A stretch of 64,000 nucleotides of DNA, from NCBI RefSeq assembly GCF_042453785.1, contig NC_091661.1, positions 25,783,501 to 25,847,500 on the forward strand, given 5' to 3'. The notes below the pieces were generated by a model, which was not told where the DNA came from, made no database searches, and saw only the letters and a program-made list of their open reading frames with translations. A program made the position numbers and the translations under genes. The stretch comes from Malus domestica (Eukaryota > Streptophyta > Magnoliopsida > Rosales > Rosaceae). This document shows positions 4,834 through 63,876 of this stretch, in pieces (position 1 is the stretch's first letter; each line of letters starts with the position of its first letter).

Positions 4834-7150
4834 TCAGTTGGATTGCATGCTGCTTAGGCCGTGATCTCCCGGCAAATCTGCAGAACAAGCAACTCCTATC
4901 CTGGCCATGATAACCAAGCACTTCCTAACTCTTTGCCTTTGATCATCTTGGACCTGATTCCTATTGCTTGAGCCATTACTACGAGTGCTGCTTTCTTTTA
5001 TTTGAAGAAGCACCGGATCACATATTTCTTCTACGAGTTCAAGCAAAGCTATCTGAACAAACTTGTGCAGGTTCAGACCATCATTGAACATTTCATCTGT
5101 AGGCCTCTTTCCAGTAAGCATCTCCAACAGCAGGATTCCATAGCTATACACATCACCATATGTTGAAACCTCGTTTCCCATTTCATACTCAACAGGTTTT
5201 CGTACAGAAGATACAGTTAAAAATTGAAATAAGAAGAGAATTGTTCTCTTGTACATGTTAGAAAGAGGTTGAAACAACAATCCAACTTACCAGGGGCAAT
5301 ATAGCCTATGGAACCGTTAATGACATTTGCAGTGCTTCTGTGCAAAGGAAGTGAACATGAAGCATCTGGGAGGTACCTTGCTAGACCAAAATCAGCAACG
5401 CGAGCAGTCATGTCGCCTTCCAAGAGAACGTTGCTGGGTTTCAAATCACAATGAATTATTGGTACGTGAGAGTGGTTGTGCAAATAAATTAGAGCATTAG
5501 CCACGTCGATGGCAATGTTTACCCTCTGAATAAGGTTCAAATGGCCCTGCACGATGGGGGCCCCAGGTAGTCTATGAGCTGAAAAATGCAGCCACTCTTC
5601 AAGATTTCCATTCACCATGAATGCATATATCAAAGCTTTGAAATCATGTCCTTGAAAATCGATACTTGAACACACGGTCAGTAGCTTGACAAGATTCTGG
5701 TGCTTGATGTTTTTCAAGGCTTAACATTCAGCTGTAAAACTCTCTTGAACCTTGCACATTAAGCACTTTAACTGCAACAATTCTTTCTTCCTGATTGAGA
5801 ATTCCCCTGTACACTGACCCGAAGCTACCAGCACCAATCAAATTCCGAGAAGAAAACCCATTAGTCGCTTTGAGGAGATCACTGTATGAAACTTTCAAGA
5901 GTGCAACCTCCCATGATGATCCTGAAGTTGACTTCATTCTTGATTTTCTTGATAGATAAAAAAGTACACAGCGCAATGATTTTCTTGATGGATAAAGAAG
6001 CACAAAGCACAACAGGAAGACAATTCCAATATCACTCCCACAGGCAATTGAGATAAGTACTTTTCGCCATGGAAATATTTCTTGCTTAGGTTTTTTGTTA
6101 GATTTGTCGGAGATGCATGGTGGCAACACTAACTGAGATATACCTCCACATAGCCGTTTATTTCCAATGATAGAAAACGAAGTTGAATTCTGGAAAACTC
6201 CTTTTATCTGTACTGCACCTTCTAAATCATTGAATGATAGGTTTAAGTTCCGCAAGACGCAGAAACTCCCTTAACAGTTAGGAATTCTTCCAGTTAAGAA
6301 GTTGCGAGAAAGGTCAAATTCTTCAACTCCTCTCAAAAGAACTCCAAGCGTCAGGAATGGTCCCTCGCAAAAAATGTCCTTCCAAATGCAAACTTTCCAA
6401 ACTTATGCAGTTTCCTATCGAGCTTGGAATCTCACCAGATAATTTGTTTATCAGAAAGATCCAAGTAAGCAAGCTGCAACAAAAGACCTACTCCAAATGG
6501 AATGGAATGAGTAAAATAAGTTTATTTTGAGAAAGATTCAAAGCTTGCAAATTCCTGCATTCACCGAGACTTAGCGGTATGCTTCCTTGTAAGCTGTTTG
6601 ACATGAGAAGTAATCTGCCTAACGAAGTTAGATTGCCTAGCAAAACTGGGATAGTACCGGGCAACTCATTGTGATTCAATGACAGACTAAAATTTTGTTC
6701 AGTTTACATATTGAGATTGGTATAGGGCCCGTTAATTGGTTTACCTGAAAGCCTAGTATCCCCAAGTTGATGAGATTTCCAATTCCTATAGGAATGCTAT
6801 CTGATTCCCACCCAATCTCATTACCTCGAGCTTTGCTGAGAGGTTGCTGAGAGATTCAGGTAGCACTCCTCCAAAATTATTGTCACTGATATCCAAACGC
6901 TCTAAATTGGTGCAATTAACCAGAGAAGAGAGAAAGTCCAAGTCACCTTCCTCATTATTTCCAAGATTGTTAGCATCCATTTCTAACCGAAACAGATTGG
7001 ACATCCCTGGCAGGCTAGGCACTCTTCCTGTAAACATATTGGCTGAGATACCAAATAATGCAAGGTTGGATGCATTGGAGATTGAAACTGGTATTTGTCC
7101 ACTGAATCGGTTGGATTGAAAATAAAAGGCTTCGAGGTTTGGAAATGCAG
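4834..7150 (-). pseudogene. LRR-XII receptor-like kinase pseudogene (RLK copy 1), 5'-truncated and frameshifted
   Basis: Minus-strand pieces in order: LRRs (from 7150 down to about 6490, broken), the last LRRs and transmembrane region with the start of the kinase (6255-5728), the kinase core (5717-5292) and a C-terminal exon (about 5187-4843). HCDLKPSN in place of HRD marks a non-RD kinase, as in the FLS2/EFR/Xa21 group; GDVYSYGILL is present. Lesions: missing signal peptide, cap and early LRRs; multiple frameshifts at 6260-6780; a frameshift plus in-frame TAA near 5720; an altered intron acceptor (TG instead of AG near 5188); and a scrambled C-terminus. The intron donor at 5290 (GTAAGT) matches the position in the other copies. 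The 5' truncation joins a duplicated RLK 3' flank at about 7150. Confidence 0.9.
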
Positions 7151-14595: not shown

Positions 14596-15987
14596 TCAAG
14601 TTGGTGCATATATGTCGCTCATGCCCAACTTGTGTAAGAAACTTGAAAACTTGTGACTCGAAACAGCTTTTGTGAGGATATCTGCCAACTGATCTTCTGT
14701 TCTTATCGCTGGTACTTCAATTATTTTCCCTTCCAATTTTTCTTTGATGAAGAACCGATCAACTTCAACATGCTTTGTTCTATCATGTTGTACCGGATTA
14801 TGTGCAATGTCACGAGCAGCTTTATTATCACAAAATAATTTCATGGGTTGATCATCTTGTATACCCAAATCGCTTAACAGAAGCTTAAGCCACAAAATTT
14901 CACAAATCCCCAAAGCCATACCTTTGTATTCTGCTTCTGCACTGGAACGGGCAACCACATTCTGTTTCTTACTTCTCCATGTAACCAAGTTACCATCAAC
15001 AAACGTAAAGTAACCTGATGTTGAGCGTCTATCATCAATGGAACCAGCCCAGTCTGCATCAGTATAACCTTCAACACTAAAGTGATTATTCCTCTTAAAC
15101 AAAATTCCTTTGCCCGGACTTCCCTTCAAATATCGCAATATTCTCGTCACGGCATTCATATGTTGTTCTCCAGGATCATGCATGTATTGACTCACTACAC
15201 TCAAGGCATAAGCAAGGTCCGGTCTTGTGTGTGCCAAATACATCAAACGACCTATTAACATTTGGTATCTTCCTTTGTCAATTGGTACTTGATTATGATC
15301 AACACTAAGCTTCAATCCTTCTTCTAATGGTGTAGCTACTGGCTGACAAGCTGACATGCCAGTTTCGTGCAACAAATCAATAATATACTTCCTCTGAGAC
15401 AAGAAAATTCCAGAACTGCTTCTCGACACCTCAATCCCTAAAAAATATTTCAGGGATCCAAGGTCCTTCATTTCAAATTCTGTAGACAGGTATCTTTGCA
15501 AGGCCGCACGTTCTTCTGGATCATTACCTGTTACCACCATATCGTCTACATACACAATAAGTGCAGTAAGCTTCCCATTCTGTCTTTTCAGGAACAAAGT
15601 ATGATCAGAGTTACTTTGTCTGTAACCAAATGCTCTCATAGATTTCGTGAATCTTCCAAACCATGCTCGAGGGGACTGCTTCAAACCATACAAGGATTTC
15701 TTCAATCTACACACTTTTCTTTTGTATTTATTTGGAGCATTACATCCCGGTGGAAGATCCATATAAATTTCTTCTGTCAAGTCTCCATGCAAGAAAGCAT
15801 TCTTCACATCGAACTGTTGTAAGGGCCAATTAAGATTTGCAGCCAAGGACAACAAAACACGAATTGTGTTGATCTTAGCTACAGGTGCAAATGTATCTGT
15901 GTAGTCGATTCCATATTTTTGAGTGTATCCTTTTGCTACCAGTCTTGCCTTGAAACGATCCACCGTCCCATCTGCTTTGTATTTCAC
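14596..15987 (-). pseudogene. Copia reverse transcriptase/RNase H domain
   Basis: An open stretch of 463 codons. It begins in the RT N-terminus (KARLVAKGYTQ), has QQFDVKNAFLHGDL, the active-site YVDDMV, LMYLAHTRPDLAYA and the RNase H region with ADWAGS and ADILTKA. The natural reading frame continues upstream, but a TAA at about 15990 replaces the tryptophan expected in the CKWVYTVK-type motif, so the polyprotein is interrupted. The domain itself looks complete. Confidence 0.9.
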
Positions 15988-15996
15988 AGTATAGAC

Positions 15997-17219
15997 TTAT
16001 TTGCATCCCACAGGTTTCTTACCAGCTAGCAAATCTGTGATCTCCCAGGTAGCATTCTTCTTCAAAGACTTCAACTCTTCATTCATTGCTACTTGCCAAC
16101 GTGGATCGGTTAAAGCCTCCTGCACACTGTTAGGAATATATACAGTAGATAATTGATGCATAAACGACTTATTTGATTCTGACAGGTGACTGGTAGACAC
16201 ATAATTACTTAACGGGTATAACACATTAGACTCAGGGTTGGGCTTACTCACCGGATACCTAGTTTTGCATTTAGGGTCGGCTTCATAAGTAAGTTTAGGA
16301 ATACCTCGGTTGACGCGATCAGGGAGACGACATAGTGGTGATGCATCCGGGATCGAAGACGATTGATTATGGTTATTGGGACTCAAGATCGACTGTGACG
16401 TAGCTAGCGACACATGGCTGTCCGGTGGTGAGGAAACTGGCAGTGAGCTATCAGGCAGTGAGTTATCTGGCGATGTCGACTCGTCCCTTTCAAGGTTTTC
16501 AACATTGTTTCCATGTGAATGATCACCACTTGTCTCCAAGACATTACCACTTAATTCCAATTCATTCACATCATTATTTTCGTTTGAATGATCACCACTT
16601 ATTTCCAAGACATCACCACTTAAATCCAAATCATTCACTCTATCTATATCTAGAATAGTATAATCAAGAGTTTGAACTTCTTTCTGATTCTCCCCATGAA
16701 GTGAAGACTCGGGATTGGCAAAGTACATATCATTCTCATGAAACGCAACATCCATAGTGACAAACAACTTATTCGTCGGTGGGTGATAACAACGGTATCC
16801 TTTCTGCCTTGATGCATACCCCACAAACACACATCGTAAGGCTCGAGGTTCAAGCTTACTTCGATGTTGTTTATGAAGATGAACGAAGGCCACACAACCA
16901 AACACATGAGGTGGAAGATTAGGGACTGCAGGAGCATCAACATATGAAGAAAGTGCCTGAAGGGGTGTCTGAAAATCAACCGATCGGGATGGAACACGAT
17001 TAATGAGATACGCAGCTGAGGTGAGAGCTTCTCCCCAATAGGATAACGGGAGACGAGCCTCGAATAAAGAAGCACGAACAACCTCCAGAAGCTGACGGTT
17101 TTTGCGTTCGGCAACCCCATTTTATTGTGGAGTATATGGACATGTAGTTTGATGAACAATCTCATGATGATCAAGAAAGGCACGAAGTTCAGAGTTAACA
17201 TATTCGCCATCATTATCAC
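15997..17219 (-). pseudogene. Copia integrase C-terminal part and linker, frameshifted
   Basis: 15997-16905 is open and contains the integrase-to-RT linker (FGCVAFVHLHKQHRSKLEPR, then FVGYAS..KGYRCY) and a long Ser/Asp/Asn-rich spacer with repeated SGDVLE/SGNVLE units. The integrase core between about 16900 and 17310 is spread over other frames with at least one in-frame stop near 17128 and a disrupted region near 17220-17260. Confidence 0.8.
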
Positions 17220-17319
17220 TCATGAGAACCTGTATTTGTGACTTATATTATACTTGTACCATTTTGTAAAACTATTGAAACAAAGAAGTAACTTCACATT
17301 TGGATTTCATCAAACAAAC

Positions 17320-18207
17320 TCAAGTCATACGTGTGCAGTCATCAATAAAAGTAACAAACCAATGAGCACCACCAAATGTAGCAGTTTTAGATGGACCCCA
17401 AACATCAGAATAAATTATCATAAATGGAACAGAACTTTTATTCAAACTGGATGGAAACGAAGCACGATGACTTTTAGCTAGTTCACAAACACCACATTTA
17501 AAGCTAGAAACATCATGCTTAACAAATAGGCTAGGAAACAACCTTCGTAGATAGCCGAAAGAAGCATGTCCAAGTTGACGATGCCACAACCAAACCTCCG
17601 AAGCTTTATTCCTATCCCCCGGATTTCCGTCCACTGCAAGAGCGTGAGTCAACATTCGAGAACTGTTTGATGTCAGCTCCAAGTAGTAGAGCTTCCCCTT
17701 CCTAATACCATAACCAATCGTCTTGCGAGTCCGAATATCCTTAAAAACACAAAAGGAAGGCCAAAAAATCACAAGACAATGCAGGGCGACAGTTATTTGA
17801 GCAACAGATAATAAATTATAGTCAAGAGAAGGAACAACAAGCACGGTATCAAGACTAAGGGTATCTGACAGGGAGACAGTGCCTTCTCCAATAATGGGAA
17901 CAACATTACCGTTGGCAACACTCACAACAGTTTTGGTGGGTGGTTTTAGGATTTGTACCTGTCTAGATTCACAAGTCATATGTTCAGTAGCACCGGAATC
18001 AATTATCCATGTATTATTCGTAACAGATGCAGAAACTTTTAAAGCCTTACCTTTGTTACCTGTATTAGAATCTATTTTCGATTCAACAATCGAGGTACAC
18101 GACTTGTTACAGTGGGGATCACAAGTCTTGAACTGGTCTCGATCGGTCCTACTCTCATGTCCGGTTCGGTCAAATCCATTTGAAAAAGGACAAGCACGGG
18201 GAGCCAT
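17320..18207 (-). pseudogene. Copia protease, GAG-pre-integrase and integrase N-terminal part
   Basis: Contains the aspartic protease signature WIIDSGATEHMT, then LWHRQLGHASFGYLRRLF and CGVCELAKSHR (the zinc-binding pre-integrase region) and SDVWGPS at the integrase start. The ATG at 18207 is only about 360 bp from the 5' LTR. The upstream sequence, with two similar segments sharing GACGGCGTCGCTCGCTGG, has no gag-like ORF, so gag appears deleted. Confidence 0.85.
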
Positions 18208-51060: not shown

Positions 51061-52040
51061 CATGTCGCCTTGTAGAGAGCCACGTACTTCTTCTGAGTCT
51101 AATTTTTCAGATATTACCCAACTTGGGGGAGGCTATTGCTAGTGTTATCCAATCATTACTTCGTCTTTCCCAGAAAACTCCTTTGGAAACTGTTTATAAC
51201 CTAAAGTTGAATACCTTTGCTGGTACTAAGGGGCCTGAGGGAGCTGAGCGATGGCTTAATCATGTCGAGAAAACTTATCGAGTGATGCAATGACAGGGGA
51301 ATTTCCCTGAGGATAGATAAGTCGACACGACCACTTGATTTTTGGGTGAGGATGCTGCATCCTAGTGGAGGCATGAATCTTTTTAGTTGTCACCAGAAGA
51401 AACCGCAGACTAGGAGGTTTTTAAGCAGCTATTCCATAAGAGATTTTTACCTCCAGAGTATTTGAATTGTAAAAAGCAAGAATTCTCGTCTGTAAAGAAA
51501 GGGAAAATATCAACTAATGAGTATTATTGGAAGTTTACCGATTTGTCTCGGTATTGTCCGAAGATTGTTGAGAATCTTGTTAAGATGTTTCGACGATTTA
51601 AATGGGGTACTCAAAAGAAGTGGCGTTTTATGGCGACCACAACTCCCTGCTCTACATATCAAGAGTTTTATGAGATTCTACTACGGGTTGAGGATTCTGA
51701 AAACATGCCCAGTGACAGTGAGGAAGAGGAAGAAAAAGATAATAATAAGAAACAAAATAATAATAAAGATAAAGATCAGTCATCACAAGGACCTTGCAAG
51801 ACGCAAAGTTTTAAGAAAAGTGGTACTAGTTTTAGTTCTTCTAGTGAGGGTTCAAATTCCATGACGTCATGAAGGGGTCGTTGTTCAGGCGGTTCTCGCT
51901 TCCAATGACATAGAGGTTTTAGTGATTCTGGTGGTCCATTCTGCCGTAGGTGCAATAATCGACAATTTGGGGAGTGCAAGCAAGGTAACAGATGATGTTT
52001 TGTTTATGGTTAGATGGGACATCAAGCTAATCAGTGCCTA
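51061..52040 (+). pseudogene. Gypsy gag remnant
   Basis: Fragments in order: FAGTKGPEGAERWLNHVEKT (retrotransposon gag), KQLFHKRFLPPEYLN, EFSSVKKGKISTNEYYWKFT and, after a Lys/Asn/Glu-rich stretch, a zinc knuckle CFVYGQMGHQANQC-like segment containing a stop. Several in-frame TAG/TAA codons fall where Trp or Gln is expected. Confidence 0.8.
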
Positions 52041-52479
52041 CAGAGCTAGCAAAAGCCCCAACCATTTGCCTTACCACCACCAATTCCTATTCAGCAGGTT
52101 CCAAGACCTAGTGGTCATACTCAGACTGGTTATGATGGAGCATATCATTATCAGGGTGATATAGCTCCATATTTTGGAGGAAAGTATTAGTACCTACATG
52201 ATTCGTATCATCAGAGTGGTTATGCTCAATATCCAGGAGGTTATGCGCCATATTCGACATATCCAGCTGGTGGATCACAGTGGTATCCTAGAAGACAGTC
52301 CTAGAACGTTAAGGTTGCTTCTAGCAGTGCAGGATCATCGAGGTAGCCTAACCAGCCTAGTCAGGGATGAGGTACACAAGGGCGTGGAAATCAGGGTAAC
52401 ATGGGTCGTGGATAACGACAACAGCCACAGGGCTATGTTCACCATATCATCTTGCAGGATGCCCAGAACAATCATGATC

Positions 52480-54245
52480 TGATTATGGGTACGTTAAATA
52501 TTCTTGGCCATTTTGCTACGGTATTAATTGATTCTGGTGCTACATACTCTGGTATTTCTCATACGTTTGCTTAGACAACGCAACCCTACCCTACACCTCT
52601 CGGTTATGAGTTAGAGTTTTCGATGCCTAAGGTTGAGACATGTTATGTTAGCTGGGTATATCAAGGATGTCCTGTTCTGGTGGAGGACATCGTTAGGCCG
52701 GCTAATCTTGTTCCATTAGATATTGTTGACTTTAATGTTATTATAGGCATGGATTGGTTACATTACAATCGTGCCAAGATGGATTGTTATGAGAAGACAG
52801 TCACATTTCATCGGCCTATTAAGGAAAGGTTGTCAGGGTTATTTGGCATACATGGTATTGAATGAGGATACTCCTATCCGTGTGGAGGATGTTCGAGTAG
52901 TTAAGCATTTCCCTAATGTTTTCCCTGATGATTTACTTGGATTACCACCAGATACAGAAGTAGAGTTCACTATTGATTTACTTCCAGGTACATATCGTAT
53001 TTCCTTAACTCCTTACCAAATGGCTCCCGCTGAGTTGAGGGAATTGAAAACCCAGTTGTAGGAATTGGTTTGATAAGGACTTCATTCAGCCTAGTACTTC
53101 ACCCTGGGGAGCTCCAATATTATTTGTACGGAAGAATGACGGAACCTTGAGGCTATGTATCGATTATCGACAACTGAATTAGGTAACAATTAAAAATCGT
53201 TATCCGTTGCCACGTATAGATGATTTATTTAACCAACTTCAAGGCGCTTAAGGTCAGGGTACTATTAATTAAAGATTAAAAGTGAAGATGTTCCTAAGAT
53301 GACTTTCAGGACTCGATATGGTCATTACGAATTCCTCGTGATGCCATTTGGGTTAACAAATGCACCCGCAGCTTTTATGAATTTAATGAATCGAGTATTT
53401 AAGCCATACCTCAGCAGGTTTGTTATCGTCTTCATTGATGATATATTGGTGTATTCTAAGTTTAAAGCAGAGCATACTCGACATCTCACTTTGGTTTTGA
53501 AGATATTGAGGGAGCACCAATTATATGCTAAGTTTAGTAAATGCCAGTTTTGGTTAGATCAAGTAGCATTTTTGGGGCATGTAATATCAACTCAGGGTAT
53601 TCAGGTGGATCCACAGAAAGTAGCTGCAGTCGAGAATTGGGAGCAGCCACAAACCGTCACCAAGGTATGGAGTTTTCTCGACTTAGCAGGTTATTACCGA
53701 CAGTTTGTTAAAGACTTTTCAACTATAGCACTACCACTGATGAGGTTGACTAGAAAAGATGTTAGATTTGAGTAGGACGACGATTGTGAGGGGAGTTTCC
53801 AGCAGCTAAAGTATCGTCTCACTCATGCACCTGTTTTGGCACTTCCAGACGACGATGGTAATTTTGAGATTTTCAGTGATGCTTCTCTGAATGGCTTAGG
53901 TTGCGTGTTAATGCAACATGGCAGGGTAATTGCATATGCTTCACGACAATTGAAGCCACAAGAGATGAATTACCCTACCCATGATCTTGAGCTAGCAGCC
54001 ATTATTTTTGCCCTGAAGATTTGGAGGCATTATTTGTATGGAGAAAAATGTCGAATTTTCATAGATCATAAAAGCCTCAAGTACCTTTTCACCCAGAAAG
54101 ATCTAACCTTCGACAACGGAGGTGGATAAAATTAGTCAGTGATTATGATTGCATGATTGAGTACCATCCTGGTCGTGCAAACTTAGTGGCTGACTCGCTT
54201 AGCAGAAGATCACATGGCCGACTTAATACTTTATATGCTTGCCAT
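52480..54245 (+). pseudogene. Gypsy protease, RT and RNase H remnant
   Basis: Protease VLIDSGATYSGISH; RT N-terminus VEFTIDLLPGTYRISLTPYQ; then [12 protein letters not shown] interrupted by TAG; DFR-type finger; [20 protein letters not shown]; active site [18 protein letters not shown]. RNase H has [18 protein letters not shown] and [17 protein letters not shown], followed by a frameshift and [18 protein letters not shown]. At least four stops and two frameshifts. Confidence 0.88.
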
Positions 54246-54475
54246 ATCCCTTTCCTCACATAATTAAGATCTACTGGAGTTGATTTGGGAGTGATAGATC
54301 AGGAAGAAGCTTTACTTGTTAGTTTCTAGGTTAGACCAATTTTAATAGATCGTGTGCTAGAAGCTCAAGTGGAGGATGAGGAATCCCAGGAATTAGCAGA
54401 GGTAGTGTCACGAGGGAAAAAGAAGAATCTTAGGATTCCACGTGATCTAGCTGTTTTCTTAGCTGGGTCGTCATT

Positions 54476-54928
54476 TTTTCCTTTAAATTCAGTTGGGTTT
54501 TTGTAAAGTTTGGAAATTTCAGGGATTTTGGTGGGTTTTTCGTATGAGTTGTGTCGACGGCGGATAAAAGTGGTTATGCGGGGGTGAAAAGATAGTGGGT
54601 TAGGGTGTTTGATGGTATCTGGATTTGATTGTTTTAAGGTTTGTGAGAAATGGGTTTGAAAGTTGATGACGGTAAAGTAAAGGCCTGGGACATCTGCAAA
54701 TCGAAGGTAAGGAGGAAGAATAAGCAGACGTCAGCTTTGCATCACTTGGCCCTCAAGCTCTTGAGCCACTGATTGGAGCTGGGCCTCTCGATCGAGCACC
54801 CTTTCATCCACACGCTAGCATGGGTTAGAGCTTGCAACTCTGGCTATTGGGTTGGTGGAATGGTCGGTTCATCGGGCTAAAGAGTACGGTAGAGTTGCTC
54901 TAAGTTGCCGTCTATTCCAACTACCAGA
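54476..54928. other. Unassigned segment between gypsy remnant and inverted repeat
   Basis: Unlike either neighbour. It is moderately GC-rich and contains short gene-like frames (for example a stretch near 54652 reading MGLKVDDGKVKAWDICKSK), but no recognised family. Confidence 0.35.
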
Positions 54929-55815
54929 CTTGGATCATCTTCTGAGCTAGCCCCAACGGAGCCTAGGGATCAATTGATCCCAACCCTTCAATTTGATCAT
55001 ACGGCTAAGAACGGCCAATAAGCTTTCAAATTGTTTCACATAACCCAAGGCAATTTTGTTTGCCTTATACCATTCCCGTTCATAATCCACTTCTTTCTCC
55101 TCTTTCCCCCTAGTCTCCAGCTTTTTACGAAATTTCTGTTTCCCTAATCTCCAGCTTCCTTCCTCCGAAAAAAAAATCCAATTCCTGCATGCAATTTGGT
55201 GGCGGATGAGGAGGTGAGCTTGGCTGGGGTATGGGCCCGAATGGCTGTGCTGGATCAACGTCATCAGCTGCTTTGCCGTCTTCATCGTCATCGGCCGCGT
55301 TGACGTCGCAATTGGGTTTTGATTCTGTGCAGCATCAACAACATCAACAGCAGTAATTGGGGTCTAGACAGGTAATGATTGATTTTTATGGCTGGAAATT
55401 TGGTTTTTTGTGAGAATTTAGTTGAATTGGAATGTGGGTTTTGGAATTTGGAATCAGATCCTCTCCTGATCTCCACCTTTATTGGCTTTAGGGTCCGTAG
55501 CTCTTTCTTCAAGTAGAGGAATTTATGGAATTTGTTTCAATTAGGGAGAAAACATTAGGGAAAAAGTCGAAAACAATAAAAAATTGTTACATGTATAATG
55601 TATTTGATGCAGAAGTGAATTTTTTCTTAAGTTTTTTGGAAATTTGTGTTTTGATTTCAGTTGGAGGCATAATTTGCAGAAAAGATGGCTATGGTTGATG
55701 AAACCTTGTACCCAATCACCATTTTAATTGATGAGCTGAAGAATGAAGACATGAAGCTCCGTTTGAACTCAATCCGGAGGATTTCCACGATTGCCCTTGC
55801 ACTGGGAGAAGAGAT
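54929..55815 (+). repeat. Left arm of a ~0.88-kb inverted repeat (PP2A-A promoter and exon 1)
   Basis: Matches the reverse complement of 57176-58055 along its length with scattered substitutions and small indels. It starts at ACTTGGATC and ends within the exon-1 codons for ALGEE at GAGAAGAGAT. It includes a 5' flank, leader intron-like sequence and the first ~43 codons of a PP2A scaffold gene. Confidence 0.88.
55685..55815 (+). pseudogene. PP2A scaffolding A-subunit exon 1 copy, plus strand
   Basis: Encodes [20 protein letters not shown] and [20 protein letters not shown] followed by GEE, the N-terminal HEAT repeat of the PP2A 65-kDa A subunit. Homology stops at 55815. The following sequence has two tandem copies of a ~43-bp unit, not the rest of the gene, so no functional product is expected. 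Confidence 0.85.
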
Positions 55816-55821
55816 ATGTAG

Positions 55822-55903
55822 CTATTGTTTTTTGGTCATCATTGGATTTCCTGATGTACAACTATTGTTTTTTGGTCATCATTGGATTTCCTGATGTACA
55901 AGA
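55822..55903. repeat. Two tandem copies of a ~40-bp unit
   Basis: The unit beginning CTATTGTTTTTTGGTCATC and ending TGATGTACAA occurs twice in succession right at the inner end of the left arm. Confidence 0.85.
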
Positions 55904-56239
55904 AATCCAAATGTATTAGGGACTCACTAGAGAATGCATGAGTTAGGGCATGTAAAGCTAGAGGTTTTTTGTAAACCATAACCTGTTATGTAAATGTCTA
56001 CCTCAATTGATTATGTAAATGTCTACCTAACGTTCATCTTTTACTTCTTAAAGTGAAAATATATCACATGTGTATTTCCTTAGAGCTATGTCTATTCAGA
56101 TAAGAATCTTGTTGATTCATTCTTCAAATAATATGCTCCAACACAGTCAGTTACACCAAAAACAAAAAGTAAAAAACATAGTACTCTGTACAAGCAAAAA
56201 AACAGAGTACTTCATGAAGTTAAGGTTTTGGGAAAAAGG

Positions 56240-57302
56240 AAGGATCTGCTGAATGGCAAGTTCTGGAATCAAAATTCGGCAAAACTTAATTACTTTTCCT
56301 GCAGCAGCTATTCGTAATTCAGCCTTATTATCTCTTTGAACCTGAACATATGCAGGCACCAGGTCCGACCTAATATATACCAACATCACCACACTCATCA
56401 ATTAATTTAGAACTTAACAAAGCAGGTAGAGAGAGATCAGACAATTGATTCACATTTACATAATTACAACATCCTAATCCAAGTAATACAATATTCACAA
56501 TAAAAGCCAAGCCACAAAATAAACTGACTACCTTGTAGCTTCTGGACCAACAACTTTACACAACTCGTATAATTTATTCACAACCATGTACCGAACACGC
56601 CAAGACTTATCCTAGTCCAAAGAAAAAGTTTGCATCATGAACTAGGGTAAGCAATATGAAACAAATTACTCGGGCTATAAACCATTATCCGGCAGCAAGT
56701 CTCTGTATTCAAAATGATGTATGGAGAGAAATACAGATAAGTCGTTCCAATACACTGAGGTAGAGCATTCTCATAGGGATAACGTGAACAAAATATAAGT
56801 TCTAGTGGATTTTGTGAATAATTACATTTTATGAACTGGAAAGAAAATAAAAGAGATAACGAAACTTTTGAATTGTGAACCTACTACCATGGCATTTTAT
56901 ATACACTCTACAACTCAATTCGCCAAGTCAAACCACAAGATCATGTGTCCAGAGTGAAAACGTAATGAGAAGGCAAACAACTACAATTAAATAATGGAAT
57001 AGGATCAAATCATCTAACCTTAACCAAGGAAGGAAATATTCAACCCAGAACGTTGGCATGATCCACACCACCCACATAAAGGATAAACACCCCTAACTCT
57101 TCCGCCATTGCCAGCAGCACTTCATCATCGTCGTCATTGTTCTCGCTAAGGAAAGGAATCAGTTCCTTCTTGGTCATCTCTTCTCCGAGTGCACGGGCAA
57201 TCGTGGAAATCCTCCGGATTGAGTTCAAATGGAGCTTTATGTCTTCGTTCTTCAGCTCATCAATTAAAACGGCGATTGAGTACAAGGTTTCATCAACCAT
57301 AG
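56240..57302 (-). pseudogene. PP2A scaffolding A-subunit pseudogene, minus strand
   Basis: Exon-1 block 57302-57040 encodes [20 protein letters not shown] and, further on, [20 protein letters not shown] and [10 protein letters not shown] second block at about 56612-56533 encodes DKSWRVRYMVVNKLYELCKV and VGPEATR, here with a stop (TAG) just before it. A third block at about 56372-56245 encodes SDLVPAYVQVQRDNKAELRI and AAAGKVIKFCRILIPELAIQ. Introns with GT-AG borders remain between blocks two and three, so this came from genomic DNA. The middle HEAT repeats and the whole C-terminal half are missing. The A subunit is the scaffold that holds PP2A catalytic and B subunits; this copy cannot do so. 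Confidence 0.88.
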
Positions 57303-58055
57303 CCTTCTTTTCTACAAATTATGCCTCTAACTGGAATCAAAATACAAATTTCCAAAAAACTTTAGAAAAAATCCACTTCTACATCAAATACATGTAACAA
57401 TTTTTTATTGTTTTTTACTTTTTCCCTAACTTTTACTCCCTGATTGAAAAAAAATTCCATAAATTCCTATACTTGAAGAAAGAGCTACAGACTCTAAATC
57501 CAATAAAGCTGGAGATCAGGAGAGGATTTGATTCCAAATTCCAAAACCCACATTCTAATTCAACTAAATTCTCACAAAAAAAACCAAATTTCCAGCCACA
57601 CATATCAATCATTACATGTCTAGACCCCAATTGCTACTGCTGATGTTGTTGATGCTACACCGAATCAAAACCCAGTTGCGGTGTCGACACGGCAGATGAC
57701 GATGAAGACAGTGAAGCAGCCGATGACGTTGATTTTGCATGGCCAACCGGGCCCACTCCCCGGCTAGGCCCACCTCCTCTTCCGCCACCAGATTGCATGC
57801 AGGAATTGGATTTTTTTTTTTCAAATGAAGGAAGCTATAGATTAGGAGAGCGGGAATTTCGTAGAGAGCTGGAGATTAAGGGGAGAGAGAGAAGAGAGGG
57901 AGGTGGATTATGAGCGGGAATGGTAAAAGGCAAACAAAATTGCCTTGGGTTGCGTGAAATATTTTGAAAACTTCTTGGCCACATGATCAAATTGAAGGGC
58001 TGGGATCAATTGATCCCGAGGCTTCGTTGGGGCTAGCTCAGGAGAGGATCCAAGT
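57176..58055 (-). repeat. Right arm of the ~0.88-kb inverted repeat
   Basis: Reverse complement of 54929-55815. Shared landmarks include GATCAATTGATCCC, the promoter stretch around CCCAAGGCAATTTTGTTTGCC, the leader around TGGGTTTTGGAATTTGGAATC and exon 1. Arms are separated by a 1.36-kb spacer (55816-57175). Confidence 0.88.
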
Positions 58056-58116
58056 CCCCAGCTACCTTTAAGGCAGCATATATTTGTGAAAAATATCTAT
58101 TAGGTAGTTTTATTTA

Positions 58117-59423
58117 GGGTAAATTACATAGTAATCCCTCAGGTTTGAGGTCTATTACAACCCCATACAACAACTTTAAAAAATTTCACTTTCATACCTC
58201 ACGTATTATTTTATTTCAAAATAATACATCTGTTACATTTTCCATCAATTGATCCGTTAAGCGCTGACGTGGCTGCCACATTTGTGCTGATGTGGTTGCC
58301 ACGTGGCAAAAAAGATCTTTTATACATTAAAAATATTATAATATTAACCATATTTAAAATTTAAAAAAAAAAAAGCTGAAACCCAACAACCCATTCCCCT
58401 GACCCTCATTCATTCTTTTCACTATCTCTATCTCTCTCTCTCTCAAACCCTAAACCCCCCAAAATCCCCAAGTCCAAAACCCACACAATGCTGCTCAGCT
58501 GACGCCTTCCTCCTCACACTCACACTCCTCACGACCCTCACTGAAGCGAATGGCACAACATCACACGCTGCCAATCCCCTTCCGCCATGTTATCAGACCC
58601 CTTCTTCGACCTCTCCGACTACCTCACCCCCACTGAGGACTGATCGACAATACCCAACACGGCCTCCGACCCACCCCTTATCTGATCTGACCCAGCCCAC
58701 GGAGATCGTCTCGGCCCCGTCGCCGTCCGTTGACCGGGACATCCCAACTGACACCGACAAGACGTCGTCGTCTCAGGAGAACGAAACGAGCGCTACGGCA
58801 GCAACGACCAATACGAGGTTCAACTATCTCTCTTTCTCTGTAATTGAATTTGTTGAAATTTGTGCATTTCGGTCTCGATTGGTGATTGAATTGGTATTTG
58901 CAATCCCTTAAATTTTCAGATAAGAGTTTGGAATTGATTTGATTAGGGTTCTAGGGTTTATTTTACTCGTTTTATTTGTGATATTGGTAAGAGAGGCTCA
59001 AAACAAGTTGAGCTTTTTATTCAACTCTGACGGGAAGGAAGAGATGGGTAGGGGTGGAAGGCATGGACGGAAGGGAAGGAAAAGATGGGTAGGGGGTGGA
59101 GGGCATGGACGGACAGGAAGGAAGAGATAGGTAAGGGGTGGGATGTGGGGTTGCGGGGAATCATTTCTGGGTTTGGTTTTTTTTTTAATAGGATTAATAT
59201 TATAATATTTTTAATGTATAAAAAAATTATTTGCCACGTGGCAGCCACATCAGCACAAATGTGGCAGCCACGTCAACGCTTAACGGATCAATGGATAAAA
59301 AATGTAACGGATGTATTATTTTGAAATAAAATAGTATGTGAGGTATGAAAGTGAAATGTTTTAAAGTTGTTGTATGAGATTGTAATAGACTTCAAACCTG
59401 AGGTGCTACTATGTAATTTACCA
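58117..59423. mobile_element. Mutator-like element with long TIRs and captured gene-like cargo (Pack-MULE candidate)
   Basis: Flanked by the 9-bp duplication TTTTATTTA at 58108-58116 and 59424-59432. Inverted repeats of about 220 bp (58117 to ~58340; ~59198 to 59423) begin GGGTAAATTACATAGTA on the left and, reverse-complemented, TGGTAAATTACATAGTA on the right. They share CTGACGTGGCTGCCACATTT-like sequence. No transposase is present. The 850-bp interior begins with a CT-rich leader, then a GC-rich exon-like stretch (about 58490-58815) ending near a possible donor at GAGGTTCAAC, then AT-rich intron-like sequence. A gypsy-unlike, plant-gene-like composition suggests capture of a gene's first exon and intron. 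Confidence 0.82.
58587..58820 (+). pseudogene. Captured exon-like fragment inside the MULE, unidentified
   Basis: From ATG at 58587 one frame gives MLSDPFFDLSDYLTPTED before TGA; adjoining frames give Ser/Thr/Asp/Pro-rich segments such as IVSAPSPSVDRDIPTDTDKT. The composition is that of an acidic N-terminal region of a plant protein, now broken by frameshifts or stops. I cannot name the parent gene. Confidence 0.4.
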
Positions 59424-59519
59424 TTTTATTTATTTAGCTTACTCTTGAACTACCCATTATCAATTTTCTTTTGGGGTTAATTTATCTGTTATTATTGGAT
59501 ATCAAGAGAGGGTGGGTGG

Positions 59520-59741
59520 CGAGAGAGATCCTCGTCAGATTCTCTTTGTGAGAATTTCTGGATCCTCCAATCGCATCCCTTCATCGTACATCATGCTGCT
59601 TGTTTTCGCCATGTACTATTTATATTCAATTTTAAATAAAAAAATTTACAAAGATTTATAACCGCACAATATACGATGAACGAATGTGATTTGAGAATTC
59701 CCGGAATCCTCACAAAGAGGATCCGGCGAGAATCCTCACTC
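59520..59741. mobile_element. 222-bp MITE of the GGATCC-TIR family, 9-bp target duplication
   Basis: Flanked by GGTGGGTGG at 59511-59519 and 59742-59750. The ends form an inverted repeat with shared GATCCTC, TTCTCTTTGTGAG and GGATCC blocks. The interior ATCGTACATCATGC and CACAATATACGATG correspond to the same motifs in 47847-48053. Confidence 0.8.
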
Positions 59742-59750
59742 GGTGGGTGG

Positions 59751-60614
59751 GATGTGATTGTGCAAGACACTATGATGATAAGATGTTTTAGGCAGCTAAG
59801 ACTGCTAGTGCCCATTGAATTTGCACAGCAAGGTTTAATATAAGAAAGTTTTAACGAAACACGCCAAATATTAAACAATTGATCTATTTACATCACATAT
59901 CTGAATACACTGTGCCAATGATTGGAGATAAGGTGATCCAAGGTGGCTAAAATAGGTCCTTGGAGTTGAACCTACAACTCCACAAAATCTTAATTTGAAC
60001 ATAAAATAAAGTCCACTAGTTCTTGAACCTCATAAAAGTCCACACCTCCTACACATCGTCCAAATTATGCTCATCGATATGTTTGGCCCTTATTTTAGGG
60101 TAAATAATGCAAAGTTACAGTCTTACTTAAAAAATTACTCGTTAAAATATTAATAGTTTCACATATTTTAGTATGTTACAAACTTTTACCACACATATGC
60201 CAAACAAAGTTTTTTGTTCAAACGATATTCAAAACTAATTGAAAGGTGAATTCAAACGAACTTTGATACAAGAAGCCAAGTTGGTTACACCCAACATGTC
60301 AGGCGTTTCTTCTTCATCTTTTTTTTTTCTTATTGATAAATTGTTCATAATGACGTCCGCGATAAATGACAATTTGATTATCTGTTTTTTCTCCACAATT
60401 ATACATTTGTAAAATCAAAGCATTATGAGTTTATAAGTGTACAAAATCACATCACAATTCGCATAAATATAGCAATTAAATATATGATAAAGAGCTAAGG
60501 AGGGCCATATATATATAGGTGATAAGGGTACTCTTAATCTTAGTCTTGGACTCTTTGGCTAGAGAGGAATAGACTGATACAATTAAGCTTGATTTTTTTT
60601 TTCTTTTAATTATC
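59751..60614. other. 3' flank of the antenna gene, AT-rich spacer
   Basis: Contains the presumed 3' UTR of the minus-strand antenna gene near 60480-60614. The rest is AT-rich with no recognised element. Confidence 0.5.
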
Positions 60615-62345
60615 TTATTTGTTAAAGGTAAGAAGAAAACTGATAGGTCCCTTTCCTGTGACAGCAGCTTGGATTCCAAAAATGAGGAAGACGACCATGG
60701 CAAGACGGGCATGCTTGATCTCAGCCAGTTGAAGCCTTTCAAATTCATCGGGGTCGGAGGCCAAACCCAATGGGTCGAAAAACTTGCCACCCGGGTACAA
60801 CCTCTTCTCCGGGTCAAGCTCGGCATTCCTCTGGAACTCAATGTAGCCAATCACCAACACCTCGATCCATATCAATGTGGTGATGGAGAAGGGAAGTGGA
60901 AGGCCAAGGTAGGACGATCCTTCGATCAACTCAACCTGTTGAGTCAGTAAAAAGAAAATTAGTCGTCGACAATTTATAGTAATGTTAAATTACGTGATGA
61001 GTGTTGTAAACATAAGAAGATAAATCTCCGGCTGTGGGGCAAACTTTCTCAGATTATCATGAGCACTAATAGGTTAAGTAAATTATTGTGTGAGATGTAT
61101 AGAACAAGCCTGGAATTTGGAATGGTGTGGCTTTCATTTTCAGTATCTCTATCATCACATTCATCGTCAATAAGGACCTTACCTTTGGAGTTAGGACCAT
61201 CATATGTTTTTTGCATGGATTATACTAAGACACGACGACGAAAACGCTGTGCCAGATATATGTATATACTCAGCTCTTTATATAATACTTACAAGATACG
61301 AGATACGGCCTATATGTCATAAATACAAATTAAAAAAAATGCATTTCCAGGACAAATAAGAAGAAAAAGCTTCAATGGGCACATGCACATCTTTATCTTT
61401 ATCCACTCTTGAATGTTTTATATCTAGAATCTATGTATAAAATAGAAGATATATTTATTAAAATACGATTTTTAATATCTTTATATAGCTGAAAAATTCG
61501 TCAATTTTGACTCTATGGTTGATGAAAAAAATCAAAAAAATTACATTAGATTATTTTATCTGTTATCAACATAGATGAAAGATTTGAACTTTGGTGTTTT
61601 TTTATTTCTTAAGTTCTTGATAACTTTTTTGTACGTATAAACTCTATGATTTACATACAGTGTACATGTATTAAGCAGGCAACTGAGATCCATCGCACTA
61701 GCTAAACATTTTCATTAGAATCCTAAAACTAAAACAAATTTGGAATAATCAAATTAATGAAACTTAATTTAGCATGTGATGCACATACGATGTATTTTAG
61801 ATTAATTAAGTAACCTTTCCAGCGTCTTGCCATGCAACACCGGTGAGTCCCTCAACGGCAAGAGCACCAAGCGCTCCTAGCATGGCCCACCTCCCGTGAA
61901 TCAGCTCGCACTCCCTGAACCTCTGCAGCCCAAAAACCTCCGTGTACGGCTGAAAAGGCGTCGGATTCACCTCCACGGTCTCGATCCTTGTCCCGATGAT
62001 GTCACCCGCCACATTCTTGGCCAGGTTCTGGTCGAGCCCATCGTAATCGTACTGCAAGTACTCGGCGGGCTTCCCCAACCCAAAGGGGTCAAACCCACGG
62101 TCCCCGGGCAGAGATCCGTCAAGCCACTCTGGCGGTTCAACACCCGGAAACCATACCAGTCGTTCGCCGTCATCAAACTTTTTTTGCTTTTGCTTTGGCG
62201 GTGCAGGTTGTGGTGACTTCTTGGTGCCGAAGCTGAAGCCTCCGAAGCCGCCAAGGCGGGCTTGGAAGCGTCCGAAACTGGGCTCTGGGGTTCGGAGTTG
62301 GGATCCAAAGAAGTGGGAGGTAACGGTGGCTGTGGCGGCAGTCAT
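60615..62345 (-). CDS. LHCB4.3: Chlorophyll a/b-binding protein CP29, LHCB4.3/LHCB8 type
   Basis: Two exons on the minus strand, 62345-61815 and 60935-60615, join in frame to 283 residues. The N-terminus is a chloroplast transit peptide rich in Ala/Thr/Ser. The mature protein has [20 protein letters not shown] and [17 protein letters not shown], typical of CP29, the monomeric photosystem II antenna. Three membrane helices are visible: [32 protein letters not shown] and [16 protein letters not shown]; ExxxxR salt-bridge and chlorophyll-ligand residues are present. The C-terminus ends soon after TGKGP with ISFLLTFNK, lacking the longer tail of LHCB4.1/4.2, which points to the LHCB4.3 (LHCB8) group. 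It binds chlorophyll and xanthophyll in thylakoids and takes part in PSII supercomplex structure. Intron 60936-61814. Confidence 0.93.
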
Positions 62346-62397
62346 TGTCTCAAAAATGGAGGAGAGTAGGGTGGTGGGGTGGGACTGTAAGCGGAGA

Positions 62398-62409
62398 GCT
62401 ATATAGTGT
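62398..62409 (-). promoter_or_regulatory. Likely TATA box of the antenna gene
   Basis: Minus-strand sequence CACTATATAGCT lies about 55-60 bp upstream of the ATG at 62345. Confidence 0.5.
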
Positions 62410-62485
62410 AAAAATAGTGGGAATTTTGTGAAGGATGTGTGTGAAATGTGAATGTTTAATTTTAGGCCTTACCTTTTGGCAAAGC

Positions 62486-62491
62486 CTTATC
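62486..62491 (-). promoter_or_regulatory. I-box-like GATAAG element upstream of the antenna gene
   Basis: Minus-strand GATAAG about 80 bp upstream of the TATA-like sequence. GATAAG I-boxes are common in light-regulated photosynthesis promoters. A six-base match alone is weak. Confidence 0.35.
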
Positions 62492-62499
62492 TTTTGGAT

Positions 62500-63657
62500 A
62501 TGTATGTACTATGTAATTTACGTAGGTGTGGGGTTATGCCTTCATCATCAGTCTCAGTCCTCATAAAAGGGATTGCGATTCTTTCTGGATCTCATACTTC
62601 AGAGTTCACAGATTGAGAGATATGGACCGCATAATATAAAATGAACGGTCTAAATTTCTTGTTTTGTAGGCTCTAAAGTGTGAGATTCGGAAATTATCTC
62701 AATCTGAATATGCACATGTATTTTAGTCTTTTACCCCACACAATGTATAGTTTTATCATAGAATTGTCATGTTACACTATGAACATATAATACACAGATG
62801 TCTCAATCTGTGGTTCAATATGTGATTTATATTCACCACCTAGCAATATACACATTTTGAGGTGGTAATATAGCTAGTTAGAGTAAGATCTCTTCATAGT
62901 AGCTCGAAAAACGGAAAAATTCTTTAATGTAACTATCACATCATCATGTATATTATCAATTTACTTATATTATAACACGTAAATCTATTTACTAGTACTA
63001 ACTTTAAGTAAATGATATATTAATTACATTATTCACGTATATTATAATACATAAATTAATAACACCACATCATATTTCACCATCACCATATATTTTCTCC
63101 AATAAATGGGAGCAATGTGCTTCTTAAATTCATTGTAATTGTGGTAAGAGTGCTTCTTAAATTCTTAAACTCATTATTTTCTCAAATAATGATGCCAAAG
63201 CCCAACAAAATAAAGGCCTTGAAAGTTGGAAACCACCCATGTATGATCCCAACTCCCAAAATCAGGTCCGAAACCGACTTTAGGCCATGAAAGTCCAATG
63301 ACAGATTTCAACCCAAATAAAAAAATAAAAAAATAAGTCCAATGACAGATGGACAAAACTTTCCATGCATTCATCTATAGGAAAACTAATGAAAATGACT
63401 TAAAAGCTTTAAGTTTTAACGAAAAAGACAAAATAAAAGGTAAAGTGAATAGTACTAGAATTGACTTTTTAGTGTAAAAAATATGGTTTTTCGTTGTGAA
63501 CAGTATTAAAAGCTTTTCGTTAAAGTTCCCTTCATCTATTTTGAGAGGAAATATGTAAAAGTTTGTAAATATTTATTTATATATTAAGATTTTAAGTTTG
63601 ATTCCGTTGTTGTTGTATAATAATAATAAAAAAAAAAGAAATAGAAGAGAAATTCCA
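62500..63657. other. Upstream region of the antenna gene and spacer
   Basis: AT-rich. 62560-62710 has weak inverted similarity to the GGATCC-type MITEs (GGATCTCATACTTCAGAG and CTCTAAAGTGTGAGATTC). No gene is seen. Confidence 0.45.
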
Positions 63658-63876
63658 CGAATGAGGATTCTCTTCTGATCTTATTTGTGATGATCCCGGT
63701 AATCCTCTAATCATGTCCATTCATTGTATATCATGTGGTCAGAAATCATTGTAAATTCTTTTATTTAAAATTGAATATAAACAGTACCTGACAAATATCG
63801 ATCGCACGGTATACGATAAACAAACATAATTAAAAGATATGATCAAAAGAGGATCCTCATGCCACCAGTAAACACC
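63658..63876. mobile_element. Probable third GGATCC-TIR MITE
   Basis: Ends ATGAGGATTCTCTTCTGATC and the reverse complement of GATCAAAAGAGGATCCTCAT form an inverted repeat. The internal ATTGTATATCATGTGGTC and CGCACGGTATACGATAA correspond to the relatives at 47847 and 59520. No clean target duplication found, so ends are approximate. Confidence 0.65.

Follow-up and report, generated by a model that had tools for sequence, protein, structure and literature searches.

The terminal inverted repeats (TIRs) of Mutator-like elements (MULEs) are usually 100–500 bp long (PMC4858842). A 2012 account treats it as known that extended TIRs can incorporate acquired sequence, and in the same section describes how MULEs acquire host sequence as ‘yet to be understood’ (PMC3310237, section 4.2). 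Here we describe an inverted repeat in a 64,000-nucleotide stretch of the apple (Malus domestica) genome (assembly GCF_042453785.1, contig NC_091661.1, positions 25,783,501 to 25,847,500), hereafter the window. The repeat is very probably a decayed, non-autonomous Pack-MULE whose right end, with pieces of two captured host genes, was copied in inverted orientation onto the left, and which is today a silent relic. Contigs of this genome (651 Mb, 19 contigs) are denoted by C and a number, the window being C1:25783501–25847500, and fetched loci by L and a number.

A repeat search of the window returned inverted pairs I1, I2, I4, I6, I7 and I8 between 54927–55815 and 57176–58056, 83–91% complementary. 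Gapped alignment places the arms at 54926–55813 and 57176–58057, with 1,362 bp between them; 778 of 888 ungapped columns are identical (87.6%), with six gap events and a Kimura two-parameter distance of 0.1375. An earlier sequence-only reading had described two arms of about 0.88 kb in opposite orientation around a 1.36-kb spacer, in agreement with this alignment; its limits, 54929–58055, move outwards to 54926–58057. Reading inwards, each arm starts with an outer TIR of ~258 bp, followed by ~270 bp from exon 1 of a BRAHMA-type SWI/SNF ATPase gene; next come the remains of an inner TIR and, innermost, the leader and exon-1 start of a gene for the PP2A scaffold (A) subunit. The arms had been read as carrying the promoter, leader and exon 1 of a PP2A-A gene; PP2A-A sequence occupies their inner part, and the outer part is a transposon end followed by the SWI/SNF exon. 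Likewise, the spacer does hold later exons and introns of a broken PP2A-A copy, with internal gaps, and in addition ~420 bp of transposon sequence.

The arms end in the termini of a transposon family. A genome search with the 3.1-kb stretch gave 100 matches, and 28 places around matches were fetched. The outermost 80–260 bp of the arms recur elsewhere in the genome as inverted pairs, in a family of short elements (seven of ~490–740 bp and one of 1,560 bp) and long ones (2.1 to 12.7 kb). The majority of family ends are similar to GGACTYRGATCCTCTCCTGAGC, with variants in the C10 and C7 elements. An insertion counted as having a target-site duplication (TSD) if its flanks repeated 9 bp with no more than one mismatch, or 8 bp perfectly. 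With shifts of up to 3 bases allowed, 10 of the 13 family insertions tested have a TSD (those in the window, C10, C9, L023, L025, L026, L027, L028, L029 and L031), and 6 of 13 have one without shifts; among random site pairs the corresponding figures are 26 of 4000 and 1 of 4000. The TSD of the window element (9 bp, one mismatch) falls within the 8–11 bp of MULEs and within the tolerance of PMC4858842, which is two mismatches or indels in 9–11-bp TSDs. Its outer TIRs, at ~258 bp, have the length characteristic of MULEs; captured sequence extends the arms to ~0.88 kb.

Transposase is present within the family. Long siblings on C9, C10, C7 and C15 have a common internal region coding for FAR1 (DNA-binding), MULE transposase and SWIM finger domains. 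A domain scan covering two pieces each of the C9 and C10 elements, with stop-containing frames left unedited, detected PF10551 (MULE transposase; 3.6e-23 in C9, 1.7e-29 in C10), FAR1 PF03101 (1.8e-26 and 4.5e-22) and SWIM (1.1e-8 in C9); FAR1, MULE and SWIM exceed the Pfam cut-offs in C9 and/or C10. Searching the genome with the transposase protein gave 97 matches, and at least five loci (C9, C10, C5, C15 and C7) have 71% identity or more, the others 55% or less; among the 91 of 302 first-look candidates scored, no match lies inside the window element. The window copy, without transposase and with PP2A-A and SWI/SNF exon fragments, corresponds to a Pack-MULE, that is, a non-autonomous MULE with host gene fragments.

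The PP2A-A content proposed from sequence was confirmed: an 86-residue frame at 57043–57300 (minus strand) matches PP2A scaffold subunits (best E 1e-47), as does the corresponding exon on C6. The spacer and inner arms are ~91–92% identical to the C6 gene, 80–85% to its partner on C14, and ~75–81%, over shorter parts, to relatives on C13 and C16. The PP2A-A introns are kept, indicating capture from DNA. About 533 bp of the C6 gene is absent at 56641 in the window, C9 and C10 copies alike; a loss of ~100 bp at 57046–57048 is found in the window copy and not in C9. Including C14, four known family copies carry PP2A-A fragments. Considering that PP2A-A homology alone covers much of the repeat, one could propose that a PP2A-A pseudogene was simply duplicated in place in inverted orientation, its transposon ends being coincidental. 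We give this next to no credence: family TIRs occupy both arm tips, a TSD flanks them, a second host gene lies inside the arms, and dispersed siblings contain the same gene joints (those common to C10 and C14). A plain pseudogene inversion was rejected on account of the family TIRs, the TSD and the dispersed siblings. Thus, the derivation from PP2A-A stands; the extended MULE TIR, the TSD, the transposase-bearing siblings and the second gene fragment were missing from the sequence-only reading. Two other loci (L034 1118–1194 on C8 and L035 1039–1115 on C5) contain 77-bp pieces 95% identical to a PP2A-A exon part of the spacer. In the C9 element (L009 6833–8219), PP2A-A exon 1/leader is interrupted by ~1.4 kb with a repetitive 246-residue open frame on the minus strand.

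The second captured gene is represented by parents on C7 and C1. Both carry Helicase_C, and the best solved chains matched by the C7 protein include BRG1, SNF2 and STH1; the N-terminal sequence points to BRAHMA. The exon is present in the window, C10 and C14 copies, on one side only in C10 and C14. Homology to the SWI/SNF gene starts ~4 nt before its ATG and that to the C6 PP2A-A gene only ~200 nt before, so sequence further upstream was not captured. The PP2A-A start point probably lies within the leader, judging from CT-rich sequence and what looks like a splice acceptor further up. These boundaries speak against the proposed promoter in each arm, for which no promoter scan was made; a full PP2A-A or SWI/SNF promoter is rejected, as homology stops near the start codons. 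It is possible that a promoter resides inside the ~200 nt or in the transposon ends; Mutator element TIRs hold promoters (PMC3310237). The C10 element also contains a third host-like piece (L008 2634–2912), a BPM/SPOP BACK domain fragment (1.6e-5; 25.4 bits, below the Pfam cut-off of 27.4); nothing in the C9 element corresponds to the stretch that holds it.

The joint between the SWI/SNF intron and the PP2A-A leader reads GGAATCAGATCCTCTCCTGATC (55450, plus strand), with one change at 57535 (minus strand), and resembles a family terminus. At the same position, the C10 and C14 elements have 5–8 and 4–8 mismatches to family termini, and the C7 gene 15–18; the best match of two termini anywhere in 150 shuffled left arms has 7. 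An 11-bp inner-TIR-like block follows the 22-mer, exact in the right arm and with one change in the left. This relic is common to the gene–gene joints of the window, C10 and C14. From these matches, the two captured pieces seem to be separated by an older TIR, suggesting that the element acquired the SWI/SNF piece on the outer side of that TIR, and a new TIR further out. The exact position of the inner joint is uncertain because GGA or, with a gap, TCAGAT is common to gene and TIR; at the outer joint, CTGCA is common to the TIR and the SWI/SNF gene (by eye).

Comparing the siblings suggests how the element was assembled. The transposase-bearing C7 and C15 copies are without these gene pieces; C9 has the TIR and PP2A-A; C10 and C14 have the TIR, the SWI/SNF exon and PP2A-A on one side, the C14 copy being short and without transposase; and the window element has this arrangement on both sides. 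In C10, C9 and C14 the left TIR is accompanied by a subterminal block for which the window element contains no match, indicating that in the window element an inverted copy of a right end has taken the place of the original left end. We propose that an autonomous MULE with a FAR1-type transposase would have gained part of a PP2A-A gene (closest to that on C6) beside its right end. Exon 1 of the BRAHMA-type gene would then have been added to this end on the outer side of the existing TIR, followed by a new TIR; the older one persists as a relic. In the window lineage, the left half (old left end and transposase) would have been lost and an inverted right-end copy put in its place, giving the 880-bp arms. 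The window copy or its ancestor would have been moved in trans by the family transposase, generating the 9-bp TSD. We infer this order of events, and template switching as their cause. The subterminal block itself is on the left TIR side in L009 1338–1433, L008 1982–2032 and L010 3874–3925 and at the opposite (3′) end in the C7 element (L013 1653–1750); end exchange may be recurrent in this MULE family.

Did both arms originate within one element? The arms are 87.7% identical, and over the SWI/SNF part each is about as close to the C10 element (86.7 and 88.3%), so the left arm could stem from another copy if two separate one-sided Pack-MULE copies had been joined head to head by recombination. 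We consider this a serious but unlikely origin. In trees, the two window arms separate from the remaining sequences (support 97 for the TIR, 74 for SWI/SNF and 70 for PP2A-A), among the copies compared no sibling groups with one window arm only, and the flanking duplication suggests that the product inserted as one unit. Copying of one end within the element is the origin we favor.

The inverted repeat raises the question whether its RNA could act on the donor genes. It had been suggested that read-through RNA could fold on itself, and folding in silico agrees: 813 arm–arm pairs are predicted for the plus strand and 799 for the minus strand, versus 73 and 44 pairs between the first and last 895 bases of two 3,132-base control stretches of the window. 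The C14 sibling has 275 predicted pairs in its 300-bp ends. A folded through-transcript could, in principle, be cut by Dicer-like enzymes into 21–22-nt small interfering RNAs (siRNAs) that silence PP2A-A and/or SWI/SNF mRNA in trans. Possible target matches exist in the gene regions, compared with introns included. Exact 21-mers common to the C6 PP2A-A region (44 of 885 in the left arm, 36 of 877 in the right) answer the concern that the arms might be too diverged from any PP2A-A gene of this genome. With one mismatch, the C6 counts rise to 125/885 and 121/877; C14 has 27 and 20, and C13 and C16 none. Exact stretches to C6 PP2A-A, in exon 1 and around it, reach 36 nt (spanning the ATG) and 43 nt in the left arm and 45, 25 and 23 nt in the right. 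For SWI/SNF, exact 21-mers number 23 (left) and 9 (right) with C7, and 11 and 3 with C1. There are also precedents in maize: Mu killer, in which both ends likewise derive from one end, silences MuDR (PMC3440606), and a 2026 review presents gene-carrying transposable elements as siRNA reservoirs acting on donor genes (PMC13317346).

Against such an siRNA locus, sequence upstream of the 5′ ends of the host genes was not captured, and neither arm has an exact 21-mer in common with the C14, C13 or C16 PP2A-A gene regions. The longest perfect arm–arm run, 35 nt, is at chance level for this divergence (mean 39, P(≥35) 0.66), so no selection for a perfect hairpin is seen. Between arms, nonsynonymous and synonymous divergence are about equal (dN 0.065, dS 0.072; only 42 codons); purifying selection was rejected on this ground, and the arms appear to have diverged as if neutral. 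C-to-T decay is similar to that in siblings without long arms. Mu killer plants in which silencing took place had two short antisense transcripts that, according to the authors, are unable to form large hairpins (PMC3440606). Furthermore, loss of PP2A-A or SWI/SNF genes is likely harmful, and strong silencing should be selected against. On balance, a trans-acting siRNA locus is very improbable. A curated microRNA or other RNA family was also considered and rejected: Rfam, microRNAs included, gave 0 matches in 54000–60000 at gathering scores. The foldability and the short exact matches make silencing of host genes possible; that the repeat is a two-target, Mu-killer-like hairpin whose siRNAs tune the C6 PP2A-A and C7/C1 remodeller genes we would regard as a long shot. 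If it were, a transposon would have turned the stolen ends of two host genes into a hairpin, with the remodeller target itself part of chromatin control.

The base changes in the arms are consistent with methylation. Relative to the parent genes, C-to-T changes at CG affect 8/36 sites of the SWI/SNF part in either arm and 7/28 of the PP2A-A part in either arm. Transitions from A/T to G/C are rare, at 2/122 and 1/124 (SWI/SNF, left and right) and 4/205 and 3/205 (PP2A-A); Fisher P versus CG is 1.2e-4 or less in each case, the four tests not being independent because the arms have a common history. C-to-T changes at CHG are 7/37 and 4/37 (SWI/SNF, left and right) and 1/16 and 3/16 (PP2A-A), and at CHH 4/73 in both arms (SWI/SNF) and 5/81 and 6/81 (PP2A-A). 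As a control, the C1 gene compared with the C7 gene gives 3/36 at CG and 8/131 in reverse (P 0.70). Siblings without long arms are similar to the arms at CG (C10 5/36, C14 6/36, C9 8/28), in keeping with methylation across the entire family in the past more than with a hairpin effect. Based on this decay, the window copy is most likely a methylated, silent relic. If it is read through, the RNA would fold and probably feed mainly 24-nt siRNA methylation of the element and its siblings. In rice MULEs, 24-nt small RNAs and TIR methylation have been reported, and it was proposed that diverged TIRs may not fold (PMC4858842).

Several points weigh against the silent Pack-MULE described here. Three of the 13 insertions fail the TSD test (L010/C14, L013/C7 and L024); L013 has a perfect 7-bp match once bases of its own TIR are counted. 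The TSD of the window element contains a mismatch, its terminal base is A on the left and G on the right, and its ends were set by eye after the flanks had been seen. The window copy is without transposase, so its assignment to the MULEs rests on ends, TSD and siblings. The gene trees are short and weakly resolved (59, 70 and 82 in the PP2A-A tree), and the order of capture therefore relies on presence and absence; the SWI/SNF part could have been lost from C9 instead of never gained. The decay test takes the present parent gene as the ancestor, and CHG decay is weak in the PP2A-A part (P 0.32 for the left arm). The C14 PP2A-A gene compared with C6 is nearly as high at CG (6/28, reverse 14/201, P 0.02), and the case for the PP2A-A part thus rests mainly on the scarcity of reverse changes.

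Table 1. Coordinates of the Pack-MULE insertion and its parts in the window.
Feature	Position	Strand	Evidence
Whole Pack-MULE insertion, 3,132 bp	54926..58057	.	Both ends are family termini; TSD; siblings inserted at other places in genome
Left TSD copy (9 bp), ccaactacc	54917..54925	.	8/9 identical to 58058–58066, zero shift
Right TSD copy, ccagctacc	58058..58066	.	Comparison of flanks
Left outer TIR, starts AGACTTGGATC	54926..55184	+	Homologous to TIRs of C10, C9, C14, C7 and C15 elements and short elements
Left-arm BRAHMA-type SWI/SNF ATPase exon 1 and intron 1 start	55185..55452	+	84.0% to C7 gene, 79.2% to C1 gene over 293 sites
Inner TIR relic, terminal 22-mer and short inner-TIR-like block	55450..55479	+	2–7 mismatches to ten family termini, 2 to best (L024)
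Left-arm PP2A-A leader and exon-1 start (ATG at 55685)	55487..55813	+	90.6% to C6 gene over 330 sites
40-bp tandem duplication, left arm/spacer junction	55813..55892	+	Repeat search; counterpart once in C10, C9, C7 and C15 (by eye), among related shorter repeats
Transposon-own sequence downstream of lost transposase	55814..56233	+	Aligns to C10, C9, C7 and C15 elements
Later PP2A-A exons and introns, two blocks joined at 56641	56234..57048	-	C6 gene L011 5019–5430 (92.5%), 5964–6383 (91.7%)
PP2A-A exon 1 and leader; first codon AAG, second Met 57300–57298	57046..57507	-	86-residue frame, 1e-47; 90.9% to C6 gene
Right arm of inverted repeat	57176..58057	-	Repeat search, gapped alignment
Right-arm inner TIR relic	57514..57535	-	3–8 mismatches to ten family termini
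Right-arm SWI/SNF ATPase exon 1 and intron 1 start	57533..57802	-	84.4% to C7 gene over 308 sites
Right outer TIR, starts GGACTTGGATCC on minus strand	57803..58057	-	Comparison with family ends

The surrounding sequence contains other repeats. Adjoining the Pack-MULE is a second inverted-repeat element (58118–59422; 203-nt arms, 91% complementary), possibly another gene-carrying TIR element; its interior (58440–58830) recurs nearly full length, at 82–83%, at four other places and partially at others. An inverted pair of 163 nt, 77% complementary and 3.9 kb apart, occupies 59580–63820. Ty3-type and Ty1-type retrotransposon remnants lie at 51462–54250 and 14596–18207 (by eye, from sequence and reading frames), and several leucine-rich repeat receptor kinase reading frames, broken and open, at 4834–28256 (by eye).

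The family seems to preserve steps of capture within one genome, from C7/C15 through C9 (PP2A-A), C10 (second gene and outer TIR) and C14 to the window (end duplicated). The kind of element, a Pack-MULE, is itself known; the layered ends may record a stepwise gain of host sequence by a MULE. These ends bear on how MULEs gain host sequence, in particular on whether new pieces are joined on beyond a TIR already present and then capped by a further TIR. This locus is not named in the titles and abstract beginnings found on apple, Pack-MULE hairpins, extended TIRs and gene capture, which is no proof of absence in print.

Like the Pack-MULEs with extended TIRs described in PMC3310237, the window element has MULE ends, a 9-bp TSD, host fragments and acquired sequence in both TIRs. 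Unlike them, as described there, it carries pieces of two host genes in each arm, separated by an inner TIR relic, and has transposase-bearing siblings with the same fragments. In MULEs with tandem TIRs (PMC3310237), one end likewise has an outer and an inner TIR of the same orientation; in the window element a host gene piece separates the two, and of the inner TIR just a relic of ~30 bp is left. With Mu killer of maize (PMC3440606), the element has in common two ends from the same parent end, an internal deletion, an inverted duplication and a possible hairpin RNA: the left-end block of three siblings is absent and the right end is present twice. The arms of Mu killer, however, are transposase sequence and silence MuDR, whereas those of the window element are largely host-gene sequence and are not known to silence anything. 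Finally, animal Pack-TIRs arising from gap filling or template switching (PMC8277862) have short common sequence at the joint, as does this element in CTGCA, although here the host is a plant, the transposon is a MULE and several gains would have been sequential. The same paper rates the relevance of Pack-TIR models to plant Pack-MULEs as worth exploring (PMC8277862).

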